Shown: piece by piece, positions 48,600-56,078 of the stretch
Layout: each line of letters begins with the position of its first letter
Position numbering within the stretch: position 1 is the stretch's first letter
Assembly (NCBI GenBank): GCA_029555025.1
Contig: JAKPTZ010000045.1
Coordinates: forward strand, 124,001 to 188,000
DNA from: Deltaproteobacteria bacterium
Lineage (GTDB): Bacteria; Myxococcota_A; UBA9042; DTJE01
Length of the DNA: 64,000 bases
Direction of reading: 5' to 3'
Program-made: the position numbers and the translations under genes
Notes under the pieces: generated by a model
Seen by the model: only the letters and a program-made list of their open reading frames with translations
Told to the model about the DNA's origin: nothing
Database searches by the model: none

Positions 48600-51500
48600 A
48601 TGAGACTCGATGTCTGGAAGGTTTTCCCCATTGCGGCCATGCTTGCCGTATCCCTTTACGCCTGCGGCGGCGGACCGGCGGCGACCGACGTTACCGATGC
48701 CGTGCAGGACGTCCCGACGGACTCCCTGACCCCGGACTCCGGGAACGATGTCATTCGGCCGGATGCGAACGTGGACACCGGGGACACTGCCGGGGATGAG
48801 GGCCGGGACACTGGCGACACCGGGGAAACCGGGGACGACGGCAATCCGGACATCACGGACAACGGGGACGACGGGAACGATCCGGCAGACACGCCGGACG
48901 CTCCGGATCAGGTGGAGCCCGACGCTGGCGATATCCATGACGACCTGCCGCCGGACTCGACTGACGTCCAGACCTTCCAGTGCATTTCCGACGACGAATG
49001 CATCGGAAAGGTCGTTCCGGGAAAATGCCAGGTTCCGTGGTGCAACGACGACAACGAATGCGACCTTGCGATGGCCGAGGACGACACGCTCTGCACCGAC
49101 GATTCCATCTGCACCGAAGCGGATCGCTGCGTTGACGGCGAGTGCGTCGGAACCCCGGTTGACTGCGCGGACGATGACGAATGCACCATGGATCTGTGCG
49201 ACCAGGCCAACTTCTGTTTCCACAGGCCGTATTACGGGCCTTGCGACGACGGCAACAAATGCACCGATAACGATTCATGCGGAACCGGAATCTGCGTCGG
49301 CACCCAGATAACCTGCAATGACGACAATACTTGCACGACCGATTCGTGCAGCCCGGCCAACGGGTGTGTGTTCACCAAGATTTCAGGCACCAAGTGTGAC
49401 GACCGCGACCCGTGCACGGCTTCCGACGTCTGCGTGGCGGGCGAGTGCAAGGGAACCTTCAGTTGCGACGACGGCAATCCGTGCACGTTCGACGGATGCA
49501 ACGAACTTGGCTGCACGCACGAAGGCGGTCCGCTGGAAGGCCAGATCTGCGACGACGGCCTTGGATGCACCGAGGGCGATTCCTGCCGGGCCGGCGTCTG
49601 CACCGGCGACCCGGTCGTATGCGACGACGGCAACGTGTGCACGAACGATTTCTGCCAGGAAGGCCTGGGGTGCAGAACCACGAACAACTCGGATACCTGT
49701 GACGACGGCAATCCATGCACCAGGCTCGACAGATGCCAGATCGGCGTCTGCAAGGGCGTGACCTACACCTGCACGAAGGGTACCTGCATGGACGCCAACG
49801 TCTGCGACGGAAACGGCGGCTGCATCCCGGACTTCTCGGACTACGGCACGCCTTGCTCAAGCGACGGCAAGCAGTGCACCGACGACATCTGTTCCGGAAA
49901 CGGCACCTGCATCCATCCAAACTCCGGGGTCGGGACGCCATGCAACGACGGCAACCTGTGCACCCAGACCGACACGTGCAGCAACGGTGTCTGCGTCGGG
50001 AACGATCCGGTCGTCTGCCAGGTTGTCGACGCGTGCAAGGACGCCGGCACTTGCGATCCGGCAACCGGAACGTGCACGCTCGGCGCGCTTCCGGAAGGAA
50101 CGGCATGCAATGACGGCAACCGATGCACTTCCGGCGACAAATGTATTTCCAAGACCTGTACCGGCACCCCGGTGGTCTGCCCTGCCATCACGGATTGTCA
50201 CCTGGCAGGCCAGTGCAACCCGGACGACGGAACGTGCAGCGAAGTATTCAAGGACAACGGACAGCCCTGCAACGACAACAATCTGTGCACCCAGGTCGAT
50301 CAGTGCATCGACGGGGTCTGCACCGGCTCGAGCCCGGTTCAGTGCGTCGCGCTCGATCAGTGCCACGAACCGGGAACCTGCCAGTCCGGCACCGGCATGT
50401 GCAGCAACCCGAACTCCCCCAACACCAAGCTGTGCAATGATGGAAACTCATGCACGAAGCAGGACACCTGCACGAACGGCACATGCGTCGGGACGACCTA
50501 TTCCTGCAACGACAACAAGTCGTGCACCGCGGACTCCTGCGACGGCCTTGGCGGATGCAGCTACACGGTCGTTGGAGGATGGTGCCATATCGGCGGTGAA
50601 TGCAGACTTCCCGGCGCGACCATGGACGGCAACATGTGCATGGTGTGCGACCCGGCATCGGACGACGACGGATGGACGGCAACAACCGGCGGACCGTGCA
50701 ACGACGACAACGGATGCACCATCGACGACATCTGCACCGAGGGTGTCTGCGGTGGAACGGCGTATTCGTGCGACGACGGAATCGCCTGCACCACCGATAC
50801 CTGCGACGGAATCGGCGGTTGCATCAACTCCATCAAGCCGGGCTTCTGCCTTATAGACAACGTCTGCTACCAGGACAACCAGCAGAATCCGGAAGACCCG
50901 TGCGAGGTCTGCAATATCCAGTACTCGAAGACGGAATTCATGGCCAGGTTCAACGGCGATCCCTGCGACGATGGCGTCGCATGCACATTCCAGGATCAGT
51001 GCATTTCCGGCATCTGCTCCGGCACGGAATACACATGCAACGACGACATCGCCTGCACCGAGGATACCTGCAAGGGCGATGGAACCTGTCTTTTCGTGGC
51101 AATCGCGGGATACTGCTTCATCGACGAGGAATGCGTCCTTGAAAACACGGTGAAGCCGGGCAACGCCTGCGCCGCCTGTCTGCCCGCGGTAAGTAAGCAG
51201 TTCTGGTCGGCGTACCGCGAAGGTGAAGGATGCGACGACGGCTCCAACTGCACGATAGAGGACGCCTGCGCGTCCGGTGACTGCATCGGAAAATACAAGT
51301 GCGACGACCTGATGGACTGTACCGCGGATTCGTGCAACGAAGCCGGGGAATGCTCGCACGTGGTGGCCGAAAATTACTGCGCCATCAACGGCAACTGCTA
51401 TTTCTACGGGGATCAGCGCGGCCTGAACCAGTGCTCCCGCTGCATTCCGCCGACAAGCAACACATCCTGGACGGCGACCGACGGATTCGGGTGCAGCGAT

Positions 51501-54257
51501 GGCGATCCATGCACCACGAACGACAAGTGCCAGGGCGAATCGTGTGCCGGCACGCCGATCGTCTGCAACGACGGCCTTGAATGCACCACCGACTTCTGCC
51601 AGTACGGTCTGTGCGGAACGGTTCCGGTTTCCGGCTGGTGCGTGATCGGCAGTTCCTGCGTGGCCGAGGGAACCCTGGATCCCGCGAACGAATGCCAGAT
51701 CTGCGACCCGGCATCGAATCCGTACGACTGGTCGCCTTACAACTTCGTGACGTGCGACGACGGCCAGGCCTGCTCGGCGAACGACATCTGCTTCGCCGGA
51801 CTCTGTTACGGCCAGGCTTACGACTGCAACGACGGCGTGCCGTGCACGGTCGATCAGTGCGACGGGCTGGGTGGATGCAGTTATGGAATCAAGGCCGGCG
51901 AGTGCCTGATCGACGGCGGCTGCTATGAAGCCCTCGATCCCAACATCCTGAATCCTTGCCAGGACTGCAACCCGACCGTTTCACAACTTCAGTGGTCTTC
52001 CATCGACGGGCTCGCCTGCAACGACGGCGTTTCCTGCACCAGCAACGACCAGTGCATGGACAGTGAATGCGTCGGGGAAGCCTACGAATGCAACGACGGC
52101 CTGGCGTGCACGTCCGACTCCTGCAACGGAGACGGAACATGTACGTTCAGCAGGCTCGGCGGGTGGTGTCTTATCGATAACACATGCATCCGCGACCAGA
52201 CGCTTGAACCCGGCAACATCTGCCGCGCGTGCCTTTCCGCCCTGGAAGGCTTCGACTGGTCGGACAACAACGACGTCCCGTGCGACGACGGCCTGGCGTG
52301 CACAAAGATCGATACCTGCATGGCCGGTTCGTGCGGCGGTACCGCCTATGCCTGCAGCGACGGACTTGACTGCACGACGGATGCCTGCGACGGCCAGGGT
52401 GGGTGCATCTTCACCCAGCTTGAAACATCGTGCCTGATTGACGGTCGCTGCTTCGCCAACGGATCACCGAACCCGGACAGCATCTGCCAGAAATGTGACG
52501 TTTCGGTTTCAATCCTTTCTTGGGTTCCGAACAACGGCCAGTTCTGCAACGACTTCGATTCGTGCACGGTCAACGACATGTGCTCGGAAGGTGAGTGCGT
52601 CGGCCAGGAATACAACTGTCTTGACTCGGTTGAATGCACCCTCGATCTGTGCGACGGTTCCGGTGGGTGCAGCAACCCGCTGGCGCCGAACGCTTGCCTG
52701 ATCGACGGAACCTGCTACTGGCAGGGTGAACCGAGGCCCGGAATTCCATGCCAGGCCTGCGTGCCGGATCCGCTGAACCCGGACAGCCAGTACGAATGGA
52801 CCGACCTGAACCCGGGCGCGATCGAAATCTGCAACGGGATCGACGACAACTGCGACGGAATTCTTGATCCCGAAAACGCCCCGGGTTGCCTCGACTACTA
52901 CCGCGACGAGGACGGCGACGGCGTCGGCGTGCTCGAGGACGTCAAGTGCCTGTGCGCGCCCCTGGATTTTTATCGAACCCTGGTTCCGGGCGATTGCGAC
53001 GACGACGAACCGATGGTCTATGCCGGCCGCGCCGAGGACTGCGACGGACTGGACAACGACTGCGACGGCGTCACGGATCCCGACAACACGCCGGGATGCA
53101 TCGTCTTCTACTTCGATAACGACGGGGACACATGGGGCGTTGAAGACAATTCACGATGCCTGTGCAATCCACAGGGCAAGTTCTCGACGGCACAGTTCGG
53201 CGACTGCGACGAATCCAGGGCCATGGTCAATCCGGCCGCAGAGGAGGTCTGCAACGGCATCGACGATAACTGCGACGGGCGTACCGACCCGCCCAACCTG
53301 CCAGGCTGCGTGACTTACTACCTGGACACGGACAAGGATACGTTCGGCGACGCAACCACCTTCAAGTGCCTGTGCCAGCCGACAGCCGAGTTCAACGTTA
53401 CCAACAGTTCCGACTGCAACGACTTCAGCGACACCGTTTATCCGGGTGCACCCGAACGCTGCAACATGATCGACGACGACTGCTCGGGACTTCCCGATGA
53501 CGCGGACCTGCTGGAACTCTGTCCGCACGACCCGGAGACGCTGAATAACGCGGTAATGTTCTGTGAAGGCACCTGCAAGATCCGCTGCAACGGCGCCAAC
53601 CTGTCGGCCGGCCAGCCGGCCTGGTACGATCTGGACGGCAGCGCAACAAATGGATGCGAGTGCCAGGGGGATGCTCTGGAACTGACTTACAGCATGTCAC
53701 AGTCCGAACCTGCGCCGCTGGGCAGCCTGGTTGACGACGAGGGGCTTACTTCGTACCAGATCGCAAAGATATCCAGCGTCGGTGCCGAAGACTGGTTCAT
53801 CGTGACGGGCATCGACGCCCCGGACTCGACGATGACCGAAATCGACAGCGACAACTATCACCTGGACATCCGCTTCAACGTGAACCCGTCCAATGAATTC
53901 GTTTTCGATGTCTTCAAGGAAGTTCAGATCGGCGATCAGACCCAGGTACTGCAAATCTGCACTTCCTCGCTGAACTGGAATCACTACACCGATTTCTTCA
54001 CCGGCGGCGTCGGCGAGGGCGTCTGTTCCAGCAACTACGTCGAGGCCTGCACGGCGCCCGAGGATCTTGCACGCTGCCTGGTGGTCGAGGGTGCCAACGC
54101 CCCGAACAGGTGCAACGCATGTCCGGGTTGGGCCTCGCCAGGTGCCAACTTCTGCGCCAACCAGACGGAAACCCTGCTGGTCAAGGTCCGCCGCAAGGCC
54201 GGTGCTTCCCCCACATGCAGCCAGTACAAGCTTGAAGCTTCGAACGGCGTCCGCTGA
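48600..54257 (+). CDS. Giant cysteine-rich lipoprotein with two families of tandem repeats and MopE-type metal-binding repeats
   Basis: 1885 residues. Signal ends in SLYAC (lipobox). About 25-125 is an Asp/Gly/Thr/Pro linker. About 125-635 has irregular short units with CDDGNPCT-like cores and CxxGxCxGT. About 636-1339 consists of eight units averaging exactly 88 residues, each with about 12 Cys. A ninth partial unit follows. About 1409-1618 is three 70-residue units starting CNGIDDNCDG, the MopE-type pattern. The last 210 residues are a non-repeated beta-rich domain. It is presumably anchored to the outer membrane and exposed at the surface; copper or calcium binding is suggested by the MopE units, not shown. 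GAGGTG precedes the ATG. Confidence 0.92.
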   Translation: MRLDVWKVFPIAAMLAVSLYACGGGPAATDVTDAVQDVPTDSLTPDSGNDVIRPDANVDTGDTAGDEGRDTGDTGETGDDGNPDITDNGDDGNDPADTPDAPDQVEPDAGDIHDDLPPDSTDVQTFQCISDDECIGKVVPGKCQVPWCNDDNECDLAMAEDDTLCTDDSICTEADRCVDGECVGTPVDCADDDECTMDLCDQANFCFHRPYYGPCDDGNKCTDNDSCGTGICVGTQITCNDDNTCTTDSCSPANGCVFTKISGTKCDDRDPCTASDVCVAGECKGTFSCDDGNPCTFDGCNELGCTHEGGPLEGQICDDGLGCTEGDSCRAGVCTGDPVVCDDGNVCTNDFCQEGLGCRTTNNSDTCDDGNPCTRLDRCQIGVCKGVTYTCTKGTCMDANVCDGNGGCIPDFSDYGTPCSSDGKQCTDDICSGNGTCIHPNSGVGTPCNDGNLCTQTDTCSNGVCVGNDPVVCQVVDACKDAGTCDPATGTCTLGALPEGTACNDGNRCTSGDKCISKTCTGTPVVCPAITDCHLAGQCNPDDGTCSEVFKDNGQPCNDNNLCTQVDQCIDGVCTGSSPVQCVALDQCHEPGTCQSGTGMCSNPNSPNTKLCNDGNSCTKQDTCTNGTCVGTTYSCNDNKSCTADSCDGLGGCSYTVVGGWCHIGGECRLPGATMDGNMCMVCDPASDDDGWTATTGGPCNDDNGCTIDDICTEGVCGGTAYSCDDGIACTTDTCDGIGGCINSIKPGFCLIDNVCYQDNQQNPEDPCEVCNIQYSKTEFMARFNGDPCDDGVACTFQDQCISGICSGTEYTCNDDIACTEDTCKGDGTCLFVAIAGYCFIDEECVLENTVKPGNACAACLPAVSKQFWSAYREGEGCDDGSNCTIEDACASGDCIGKYKCDDLMDCTADSCNEAGECSHVVAENYCAINGNCYFYGDQRGLNQCSRCIPPTSNTSWTATDGFGCSDGDPCTTNDKCQGESCAGTPIVCNDGLECTTDFCQYGLCGTVPVSGWCVIGSSCVAEGTLDPANECQICDPASNPYDWSPYNFVTCDDGQACSANDICFAGLCYGQAYDCNDGVPCTVDQCDGLGGCSYGIKAGECLIDGGCYEALDPNILNPCQDCNPTVSQLQWSSIDGLACNDGVSCTSNDQCMDSECVGEAYECNDGLACTSDSCNGDGTCTFSRLGGWCLIDNTCIRDQTLEPGNICRACLSALEGFDWSDNNDVPCDDGLACTKIDTCMAGSCGGTAYACSDGLDCTTDACDGQGGCIFTQLETSCLIDGRCFANGSPNPDSICQKCDVSVSILSWVPNNGQFCNDFDSCTVNDMCSEGECVGQEYNCLDSVECTLDLCDGSGGCSNPLAPNACLIDGTCYWQGEPRPGIPCQACVPDPLNPDSQYEWTDLNPGAIEICNGIDDNCDGILDPENAPGCLDYYRDEDGDGVGVLEDVKCLCAPLDFYRTLVPGDCDDDEPMVYAGRAEDCDGLDNDCDGVTDPDNTPGCIVFYFDNDGDTWGVEDNSRCLCNPQGKFSTAQFGDCDESRAMVNPAAEEVCNGIDDNCDGRTDPPNLPGCVTYYLDTDKDTFGDATTFKCLCQPTAEFNVTNSSDCNDFSDTVYPGAPERCNMIDDDCSGLPDDADLLELCPHDPETLNNAVMFCEGTCKIRCNGANLSAGQPAWYDLDGSATNGCECQGDALELTYSMSQSEPAPLGSLVDDEGLTSYQIAKISSVGAEDWFIVTGIDAPDSTMTEIDSDNYHLDIRFNVNPSNEFVFDVFKEVQIGDQTQVLQICTSSLNWNHYTDFFTGGVGEGVCSSNYVEACTAPEDLARCLVVEGANAPNRCNACPGWASPGANFCANQTETLLVKVRRKAGASPTCSQYKLEASNGVR
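49170..50504 (+). repeat. Irregular short Cys-rich repeats in the giant lipoprotein
   Basis: Ten or more copies of a core resembling CDDGNxCTxxDxCxxGxC, with unit lengths varying from about 25 to 60 residues. The spacing is less regular than in the following block, so this part may be older or more diverged. Confidence 0.75.
50505..52616 (+). repeat. Eight tandem 88-residue Cys-rich units
   Basis: From the Cys at 50505 to the base before the Cys at 52617 is 2112 bases, or 704 codons, exactly eight times 88. Each unit begins CxDxxxCTxDxC, then C-(V/L/F)-I-D/G-x2-C, a Cys-x2-Cys before a Trp-containing segment, and closes with CxDGxxCTxxDxCxxGxCxG and an aromatic. Amino acid identity between units is moderate, so the repeat is not a recent DNA-level duplication. 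Confidence 0.85.
52824..53453 (+). repeat. Three tandem 70-residue MopE-type units
   Basis: Exactly 630 bases: each unit begins Glu-x-Cys-(N/D)-G-(I/L)-D-(D/N)-(N/D)-C-D-G, has D-x-D-x-D calcium-like loops (RDEDGDGVG), and a KCLC or RCLC pair before GDCD-type. A fourth, cut-off unit starts at 53454. The pattern resembles the Pfam MopE copper-binding repeat; binding is untested. Confidence 0.85.
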
Positions 54258-54267
54258 GAGGTTCCCG

Positions 54268-54897
54268 ATGCTCACCGAAAAGCTTCTTGAAGTCACGCTG
54301 GTCGGCAGCGAGTGGATTCTTTACATCCTGCTCGGCCTGTCCGTTCTTTCGGTCGCGATCATTGTCGAAAGGGCCCTGTTCTACCTGGCCAACCGCAAGG
54401 CGTGGGCCACGCTGAAGAAGCGTATCGAACCCATGGTTCACGGCCGTCGCTGGGACGAAGTCCGACAGGTCATCGACTCCTGGCCAGGTGCCGAGGTTGA
54501 AGTCCTGCGGGCGGCAATGGACGGATCCGAGATCGGGCCGGAGGCCGCGGACAAGCTGGTGGAATCGGCAATGATCCATGAACAGCAGCGACTGGATCGA
54601 AGGCTGGCCTTTCTTGGAACGCTTGGGAACAATGCGCCGTTCATCGGCCTGTTCGGGACGGTTCTGGGAATCATCCGCGCGTTCCATGACTTGTCCGGAA
54701 ACCTTCAGGGTGGCGCGAACGTGGTCATGGCCGGCATCTCCGAGGCACTGATTGCGACCGCGGTCGGTCTTTTCGTGGCCATCCCCGCGGTCATCGCCTT
54801 CAATTACTTCAACAAGAGCAGTCTTCGAGAAGTCAACAGGGCGCGGGCGGCCGTCAATGAGATCCTCGCATGCAGGCTTGCGGGACGCGACGACTAG
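54268..54897 (+). CDS. MotA/TolQ/ExbB-family proton channel protein
   Basis: 209 residues, three transmembrane segments. N-terminal ILYILLGLSVLSVAIIVERA, a cytoplasmic stretch (KRIEPMVHGRRWDEVRQVI), then LGTLGNNAPFIGLFGTVLGI and the third segment AVGLFVAIPAVIAFNYF. ExbB/TolQ proteins work with ExbD/TolR to couple the proton gradient to outer-membrane processes. No ExbD or TolR gene follows. The gene lies 10 bases behind the giant lipoprotein, so they are likely in one transcript. Its TAG stop shares CTAG with the convergent aminotransferase. Confidence 0.9.
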   Translation: MLTEKLLEVTLVGSEWILYILLGLSVLSVAIIVERALFYLANRKAWATLKKRIEPMVHGRRWDEVRQVIDSWPGAEVEVLRAAMDGSEIGPEAADKLVESAMIHEQQRLDRRLAFLGTLGNNAPFIGLFGTVLGIIRAFHDLSGNLQGGANVVMAGISEALIATAVGLFVAIPAVIAFNYFNKSSLREVNRARAAVNEILACRLAGRDD

Positions 54898-56078
54898 ATC
54901 CGGCCAAACGCCTTTCTGATCCGTTCTGCCGCGCGGCAGCAGTCTTCCACGGACGGAACCAGCGCGAACCTTGCATGGAAGCGACCGGGACTGGTTCCAT
55001 CGGCCAGCGGCTCGCCCAGAGCGGCGCCCGGCGTACACACGATGGCGACATCCCTTGAAAGCAGGCGGGTCGCGAACTCCAGCCCGTCCATTCCTTCCGG
55101 CACCTTCGGCCACAGGTAAAGCGTTGCCTCGGAATCTGGAACCACGCATCCGACGTCCCGAAGCGCCGGTATCAGGATGTCACGCTTTGCCCGATAGACT
55201 TCCCGCATGGCATCCACGTGGGCCTGGTCTGAAAGTGCCGCCACCGCGCCGTCCTGGATGAAGGTGGCCGTCCCGGAATCGATGTTCGTCTTCAATTTCT
55301 TGAAAAGGGATACGAGCCGCGGGTCTCCGCACACCCAGCCGACCCGGTGGCATGTCATGTTCGATCGCTTTGAAAGCGACTGGAACACGATTATTCCATC
55401 CCGGCCGAACTCCAGGATCGACTTCGGCGGACGATTGAACCAGACCTCGGTGTATGCCTCGTCGGAACCGATGATCAACCGGTGACTGTGAGCCCATTCG
55501 ATCAGGGCCGGCCAGAAATCGTCCGGGGCAACGGTTCCGCTTGGTGAATTCGGATAGTTCACCCATATCATCCGGGCACGCGCCAGGACTTCCGCCGGGA
55601 GCGCGTCCAGGTTCGGCAGGAATCCGTTTTCCATTGTCACCGGGTAGTACCACGGCTCCCCGCCGGCAAACAGCGTTCCCCGGTTGTATGGCGGATACCC
55701 GGGACTGGGGCACAGCACGACGTCGCCGGGATCAAGGATCGCGTTCGGAAAATTGAAAACGGCTTCCTTGGATCCGATGGTCGCGCAGACCTCGGTTTCC
55801 GGGTCAAGACGCACGTTGAACCGCTGTTCCATCCATGCCGCCACGGCGGCCCGGAAGCTCCGGTCACCGACATAGCTTGGATAGCCCGCGGATGCCCTGG
55901 CATCGACACCGGCCTGGACAGCCTTGCGGACGATGTCCGGGGTCGGCTCGGTCGGATCGCCGACGCCGAAGTCAATCGGGTCGAACCCGCCAATCCGCAA
56001 TTCACTGGCCATGCGATCGATTTCCGCGAACGGATACCCGCTGAGGGACTGGATTCTTTTTGAAGCCCTGATTTCCAT
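54894..56078 (-). CDS. Class I/II aminotransferase (DapC / LL-DAP-aminotransferase-like)
   Basis: 394 residues, fold type I PLP enzyme. FGVGDPTEPTPDIVRKAV near the start, a substrate-side segment DPGDVVLCPSPGYPPY, VNYPNSPSGTVAP, DEAYTEVWF, and the PLP Lys in SLSKRSNMTCHRVGW. The last reads SKRSNMTGHR in most relatives; here Cys replaces Gly. Such enzymes work in lysine/diaminopimelate or other amino acid pathways; the substrate cannot be told from sequence. The ATG at 56078 is placed by a rather distant AGGAG. Stop codon shared as CTAG with the ExbB-type gene. Confidence 0.9.
   Translation of the reverse strand: MEIRASKRIQSLSGYPFAEIDRMASELRIGGFDPIDFGVGDPTEPTPDIVRKAVQAGVDARASAGYPSYVGDRSFRAAVAAWMEQRFNVRLDPETEVCATIGSKEAVFNFPNAILDPGDVVLCPSPGYPPYNRGTLFAGGEPWYYPVTMENGFLPNLDALPAEVLARARMIWVNYPNSPSGTVAPDDFWPALIEWAHSHRLIIGSDEAYTEVWFNRPPKSILEFGRDGIIVFQSLSKRSNMTCHRVGWVCGDPRLVSLFKKLKTNIDSGTATFIQDGAVAALSDQAHVDAMREVYRAKRDILIPALRDVGCVVPDSEATLYLWPKVPEGMDGLEFATRLLSRDVAIVCTPGAALGEPLADGTSPGRFHARFALVPSVEDCCRAAERIRKAFGRI

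Follow-up and report, generated by a model that had tools for sequence, protein, structure and literature searches.

The locus and its product

The window analysed here – a stretch of 64,000 nucleotides from contig JAKPTZ010000045.1 of a Myxococcota_A genome, whose numbering is used throughout – holds at positions 48600–54257 of the forward strand a single open frame for a protein of 1885 residues, with 216 cysteines and a net charge of −252. The protein is built as a series of modules, all encoded on the forward strand. It begins with a signal peptide and lipobox (48600–48665; MRLDVWKVFPIAAMLAVSLYAC followed by GGG) that ends in a putatively lipidated residue, Cys22. The lipobox, SLYAC at residues 18–22, carries a tyrosine that is unusual by inspection, and a cysteine likewise follows a signal-like segment in all orthologues and paralogues (AAGC, LAAC, WLAC, LFSC, TLAC and VSC). 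A signal peptide succeeded by a lipobox cysteine is the pattern by which bacterial lipoproteins are recognised, and the protein would be classed among them. Next comes a cysteine-free, acidic linker (residues 23–127; 48666–48980), with 31 Asp/Glu vs 2 Lys/Arg over residues 25–127 and a length that varies among orthologues (97–117 aa). A short cap (residues 128–164; 48981–49091), with five cysteines in four of four orthologues, leads into a cysteine-rich stem, two repeat arrays and a C-terminal domain, described in turn below. At its C-terminus (EASNGVR) the chain has no transmembrane segment.

Searches with the whole protein returned no NCBIfam match at E ≤ 10, only two short motifs in Pfam (PF11617 and PF00526, both above cut-off) and no relative by sequence in the PDB, where four weak matches to nucleoproteins (E 0.6–0.95) were set aside as chance; nor did a literature search find a described Myxococcota protein of such build. 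The initial annotation had proposed one giant protein with two exact-length arrays, outside any already named family. Both points are borne out, the first by the 1885-residue frame with its 704 codons and exact 70-residue units, the second by these profile searches.

The cysteine-rich stem and array A

The stem (residues 165–611; 49092–50432), a feature absent from the initial annotation, consists of 17 tandem four-cysteine repeats of the CTDC type and has 68 cysteines in four of four orthologues; the corresponding Pfam family, PF00526 (Dicty_CTDC), scores 35.1 bits (cut-off 27), in 12 stretches across the protein. It is followed by a lead-in CTDC quartet (residues 612–635; 50433–50504), equivalent to the latter half of an A unit, and by array A proper (residues 636–1339; 50505–52616). 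The eight units of this array, each 87–89 residues long, start at residues 636, 724, 813, 901, 989, 1076, 1164 and 1252, the next start falling at 1340. The spacings of 88, 89, 88, 88, 87, 88, 88 and 88 sum exactly to the 704 codons, averaging 88 residues per unit, that had first been read between 50505 and 52616, and the cysteine content first put at about 12 per unit proves to be exactly 12 in each. Repeat alignment adds a partial ninth unit (residues 1340–1410; 52617–52829).

Each A unit is composed of one quartet, a module of about 40 residues with four cysteines (C-x5-C-x11-C-x2-C) and a second quartet, with a Cys-to-Cys spacing, 6-5-6-9-6-12-3-17-6-6-5-7, that hardly varies between units. 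The repeats are far beyond chance. As the units are 36–42% identical to the first and are not reported by Tandem Repeats Finder, they are old protein repeats rather than a recent tandem duplication of DNA.

A PDB sequence search with the A unit found no relative. The structure prediction for which the initial annotation had called, run with AlphaFold2 on three A units (alignment rows from the window and the named loci only), gave an all-beta model with a pLDDT of 90.1 and a pTM of 0.49, the latter as expected for predicted beads on a flexible or elongated chain. Foldseek found no match to this model in the PDB at E < 0.001. The weaker matches are to the Entamoeba Gal/GalNAc lectin heavy chain, NELL2, Pfs25 and TNF receptors, all of them elongated, cysteine-rich surface proteins; among viral proteins, matches to adenovirus fibres (E ≥ 0.05) were not significant. 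The best matches, at E 2.5e-3 to 8e-3 and so below significance, are to the heavy chain (HgL) of the Entamoeba histolytica lectin, whose cysteine-rich arc consists of beta pseudo-domains of 20–35 residues with four cysteines in series (PMC12948311). In HgL, disulphide bonds of the C2/C3 kind link neighbouring pseudo-domains; we found no sequence relation between it and the window protein.

Paired cysteine losses, surveyed over 278 units and 112 neighbouring pairs, are too few for disulphide pairs to be derived from them. In a paralogue of 2742 residues from the window's own genome (G000:C32, locus L152), four A units have 11 rather than 12 cysteines, and the losses fall in turn on the second cysteine of a unit's closing quartet and on cysteine three or four of the opening quartet in the next unit, a pattern that hints at disulphides across unit borders.

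Array B and the MopE motif

Array B (residues 1411–1620; 52830–53459) comprises three units of the MopE motif (PF11617), each with six cysteines and a DxDxD loop, and is continued by a partial fourth unit (residues 1621–1640; 53460–53519) recognised by PF11617 and by motif spacing. The four motif starts lie exactly 210 nucleotides apart, in agreement with the three units of exactly 70 residues originally described. The pattern CNGIDDNCDG, also part of that description, occurs exactly twice at the DNA level, at 52830 and 53250 (vs no occurrence in 100 shuffles), and PF11617 (Cu-binding_MopE) scores 77.2 bits against a cut-off of 27, in four stretches. The loops at residues 1436/1438/1440, 1506/1508/1510 and 1576/1578/1580 are unchanged in four of four orthologues. 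In the window's own genome (3.49 Mb in 158 contigs) there are 138 PF11617 motifs, distributed over about two dozen open frames, and many of them sit in long repeat frames.

Asp-rich repeats elsewhere bind calcium, and it is plausible, judging from the residues conserved, that the invariant DxDxD loops of the B units do so too. The CNGxDDNCDG motif and DxDxDG loops are shared with MopE/MopE* of Methylococcus capsulatus and other PF11617 proteins, and calcium stabilises MopE against proteolysis (PMC3423442).

The C-terminal domain

The last 245 residues (1641–1885; 53520–54257) form a separate domain, which we call the tip and which the initial annotation did not include. Ten members of this domain gave no Pfam match at E ≤ 10, and no PDB match was found by sequence. 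Among the 237 genomes sampled from the phylum, it is present in 59, in open frames of about 500 to over 6,000 residues, so that the same domain is attached to proteins of widely differing length. Other families of the class also contain open frames longer than 6,000 residues that the tip profile matches (G146:C24, G239:C169 and G167:C770).

Its identity to the three orthologues is 44, 35 and 36%, compared with 49–70%, 39–70% and 36–70% for segments of the rod, so that few folded parts of the protein are less well conserved. A single-sequence model of array B and the tip reached a pLDDT of 34 and was set aside. From its position, its unusual sequence and its faster change, the tip is probably the binding part, although faster change fits weaker constraint equally well as it fits a role in recognition.

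Orthologues, paralogues and the constancy of the octad

Four full-length orthologues form the set compared here: the window protein (G000) and those of G001, G003 and G009, which are 1872–1884 residues long and, end to end, 58, 45 and 45% identical to it. All 215 cysteines of the window protein other than that of the lipobox are cysteines in all four; within residues 128–1640 the figure is 201 of 201, vs 54% of Asp and 60% of Gly. The count per module is identical as well (5 in the cap, 68 in the stem, 108 in array A and 20 in array B). Comparing unit numbers in related genomes, as had been advised at the outset, showed that every orthologue keeps the lipobox cysteine and exactly eight A units; two contig-broken orthologue pieces in G008 are compatible with eight.

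The order of the units is kept too. Between sister species (G000–G001 and G003–G009) they match by position in eight of eight cases; between genera the signal is weaker and the order still kept (permutation p = 0.0004 to 0.012), as it is against a paralogue of the window's own genome (p = 0.002), and for the window protein against paralogues of other genera p is 0.05–0.11. These paralogues, open frames of 2742, 3453 and 3559 residues, all end in the octad, MopE-type repeats and the tip domain; NCBIfam has no match at E ≤ 1 to the 2742-residue one. The octad therefore looks both old and stable. This constancy of eight units across genera and paralogues, together with that of every cysteine across orthologues, is the most surprising feature of the protein.

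The total of non-lipid cysteines is odd in four of four orthologues (215, 217, 219 and 219), the odd one lying in the five-cysteine cap. Placed beside the linker, it could form an intermolecular bond near the membrane, four related sequences being too few for an argument from parity.

The protein is no singleton and belongs to a large unnamed population, since the A unit is found in 77 and the tip in 59 of the 237 genomes of the phylum, and since the window's genome has its 138 PF11617 motifs. The view that this is not a described protein thus stands for the whole, which is unnamed, and not for its parts, which are not unique.

Further afield, the Rho protein of the window genome is 93% identical to that of Loclat_bin-06029 (locus L069) and 85% to that of CSSed10_215 (G014, of the same class). 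L069:1–3201 encodes at least eight A units of 91 residues, followed at the end by a stretch rich in Cys and Gly, a transmembrane-like segment and Arg, which together resemble a MYXO-CTERM tail; by its sequence, this protein appears to be the same stalk on another type of anchor. Long CTDC-type cysteine-rich proteins of the Myxococcota kind are also found in L091 (CAMDBH010000066.1), a metagenome-assembled genome titled Klebsiella pneumoniae, which is probably a mislabelled or contaminated bin.

Neighbouring genes

Upstream and divergent lies P0002 (47184–48452, reverse strand), a protein of 422 residues whose only known domain is CFI-box-CTERM (NF041770, 83.8 bits); its orthologue adjoins the giant gene in the sister genome G001 and was not found beside it in G009. 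Downstream, after 10 nucleotides, follows a gene of the MotA/TolQ/ExbB family (54268–54897, forward strand; 209 aa; Pfam MotA_ExbB, E = 2.8e-33); no ExbD/TolR-like gene was seen beside it. P0003, a seemingly conserved frame at 54181–55149 on the reverse strand, was rejected as the antisense of this gene. The ExbB-like gene is kept through the family, near rho in several genomes; it adjoins the giant gene in G001 and not in other genera, and probably stands outside the giant-protein system.

In genera g2 and g3, the orthologue is followed by a small lipoprotein (L151:2198–2605, L147:6906–7373, L150:2838–3245 and L148:10683–11093) with a C-x5-C pair near its end and no Pfam family above cut-off. 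Beside the orthologues of other genera there is also a conserved block of multihaem cytochromes of the C7-like and C4xC/C2xCH types (L151:3166–8557, L150:6891–8060 and L148:14365–19000). The window genome and its sister gave no match to either the small lipoprotein or the multihaem proteins, and the block was apparently lost in the window's genus, to judge by these searches. In G012, of genus g5, the small lipoprotein adjoins an open frame whose end resembles the frame that immediately precedes the giant gene in G003 and G009, and no giant gene lies between the two. As functional partners, the small lipoprotein and multihaem block were rejected, for they come and go independently of the giant gene, which is gained or lost as one unit. 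Varying as they do between genera, the neighbours say little about function.

A probable surface stalk and its alternatives

The reading that we consider reasonably probable is that of a lipid-anchored, disulphide-stapled and probably calcium-stiffened surface stalk of fixed length, with a fast-evolving tip. The chain would be exported through Sec by its signal peptide and lipidated at Cys22, the lipobox itself being seen in the window and its relatives. As the residue at position +2 is Gly, sorting to the outer membrane is expected, and display on the surface would follow, although the protein may be periplasmic instead. Residues 165–1410 would fold as short beta modules, each with four cysteines in presumed disulphides (the high-confidence model covers array A only), and because each module is held by four cysteines, the stem and array A should together make an elongated rod that resists proteases and is set in length. 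EGF-like arrays suggest, by analogy, that this rod might measure tens of nanometres, perhaps about 100 nm. Near its far end, the MopE-motif units would most likely be stiffened by calcium through their DxDxD loops, and the tip would bind a neighbouring cell, prey, matrix or a mineral surface. The kept cysteine framework, the fixed eight units, the beta model of array A and its weak Foldseek matches to elongated surface proteins all argue for such a stalk, and they lend support to the lipid-anchored surface rod with an acidic linker originally proposed, in which lipidation, surface display and rod shape are predicted features.

That proposal had also included a metal-binding fibre, which in the sense of copper is not supported: the Cu(I) site of MopE is made of His132, His203 and a kynurenine derived from Trp130 (PMC3423442), and the B block (residues 1411–1640) has one Trp and no His at all, so the copper reading fails there. 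A protein for scavenging or storing copper or transition metals in general, as the Pfam name, the four PF11617 stretches, the abundant acidic residues and the 216 cysteines might suggest, is for the same reason very unlikely. The cysteines, evenly spaced and even in number within each unit, are more readily explained by disulphides than by clusters of the metallothionein type, and a motif present 138 times in a 3.5-Mb genome, often in long repeat frames, looks structural; unlike in MopE, it is here a short stretch within a stalk. Still more improbable is a role as scaffold in extracellular electron transfer or surface energetics: multihaem genes lie within about 10 kb in G002, G003, G008 and G009, and no terminator separates the giant gene from the ExbB-like gene 10 nucleotides downstream, but the giant gene is present without any multihaem match in the window genome and its sister, and in genus g5 the multihaem block and ExbB occur with no giant gene at the site.

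Two further alternatives keep the cysteine-rich architecture and differ in its use. The rods could be cross-linked, for instance through the conserved odd cysteine of the cap, into a sheath or cell–cell matrix. The Dicty_CTDC repeat, above cut-off, comes with a precedent in Dictyostelium, whose listed matrix proteins include CTDC proteins, among them ecmA and ecmB (PMC4931340), and the odd cysteine totals point the same way; against this, the cell-anchored N-terminus favours a stalk over a secreted matrix, four sequences are too few for parity to weigh much, and short repeats may match by convergence, which leaves a matrix role rather unlikely. The Dictyostelium proteins (PF00526; ecmA, ecmB and psiF) resemble the window protein in their tandem four-cysteine repeats of about 24 residues and in being extracellular; they differ in being eukaryotic and in having no lipid anchor, 40-residue third module or MopE block, and we know of no such C-terminal domain in them. 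A receptor for kin or prey built like TraA of Myxococcus xanthus, with a polymorphic recognition domain on a cysteine-rich stalk, is less likely again. TraA, a surface receptor from the same phylum, is itself sorted to the surface and has a variable domain along with cysteine-rich repeats (PMC13184517), and few folded parts of the window protein change faster than the tip; TraA, however, is sorted by a C-terminal MYXO-CTERM signal, of which the window protein has no trace (no NCBIfam match, and an end in EASNGVR), its recognition domain lies at the other end – the window protein being anchored at its N-terminus, with the tip C-terminal – and the two share no profile family, nor did Pfam or NCBIfam place the window protein in a named receptor family.

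The surface stalk, our preferred reading, is of a familiar kind: its modules are common in the phylum, and the protein is consistent with a covalently stabilised stalk. Giant adhesins offer a parallel: in a Mobiluncus adhesin with 51 Ig-like domains (PMC10619420), the repeats of a surface stalk are likewise stabilised covalently, albeit with another fold, anchor and phylum, and with each Ig-like domain carrying its own cross-links (ester, isopeptide, thioester or disulphide). A bolder and more doubtful idea, possible rather than probable, is that the octad acts as a molecular ruler: interlocked by disulphides and fixed in unit number before two paralogous families and several genera split, it would keep a lineage-specific recognition domain a defined distance away from the outer membrane, the tip then representing a new, phylum-wide family of surface-ligand domains.

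Significance

Uncultured Myxococcota encode large sets of giant proteins rich in Cys and Asp that are unnamed or that profile libraries label as copper-binding, and the present case cautions that the Pfam name Cu-binding_MopE should not be taken as a function. What it contributes is a defined unit (88 residues, 12 cysteines), a phylum-wide C-terminal domain that is new, and evidence for a constant number of units. It also provides a concrete protein for asking whether disulphide-stapled stalks set the contact distance at the bacterial surface.
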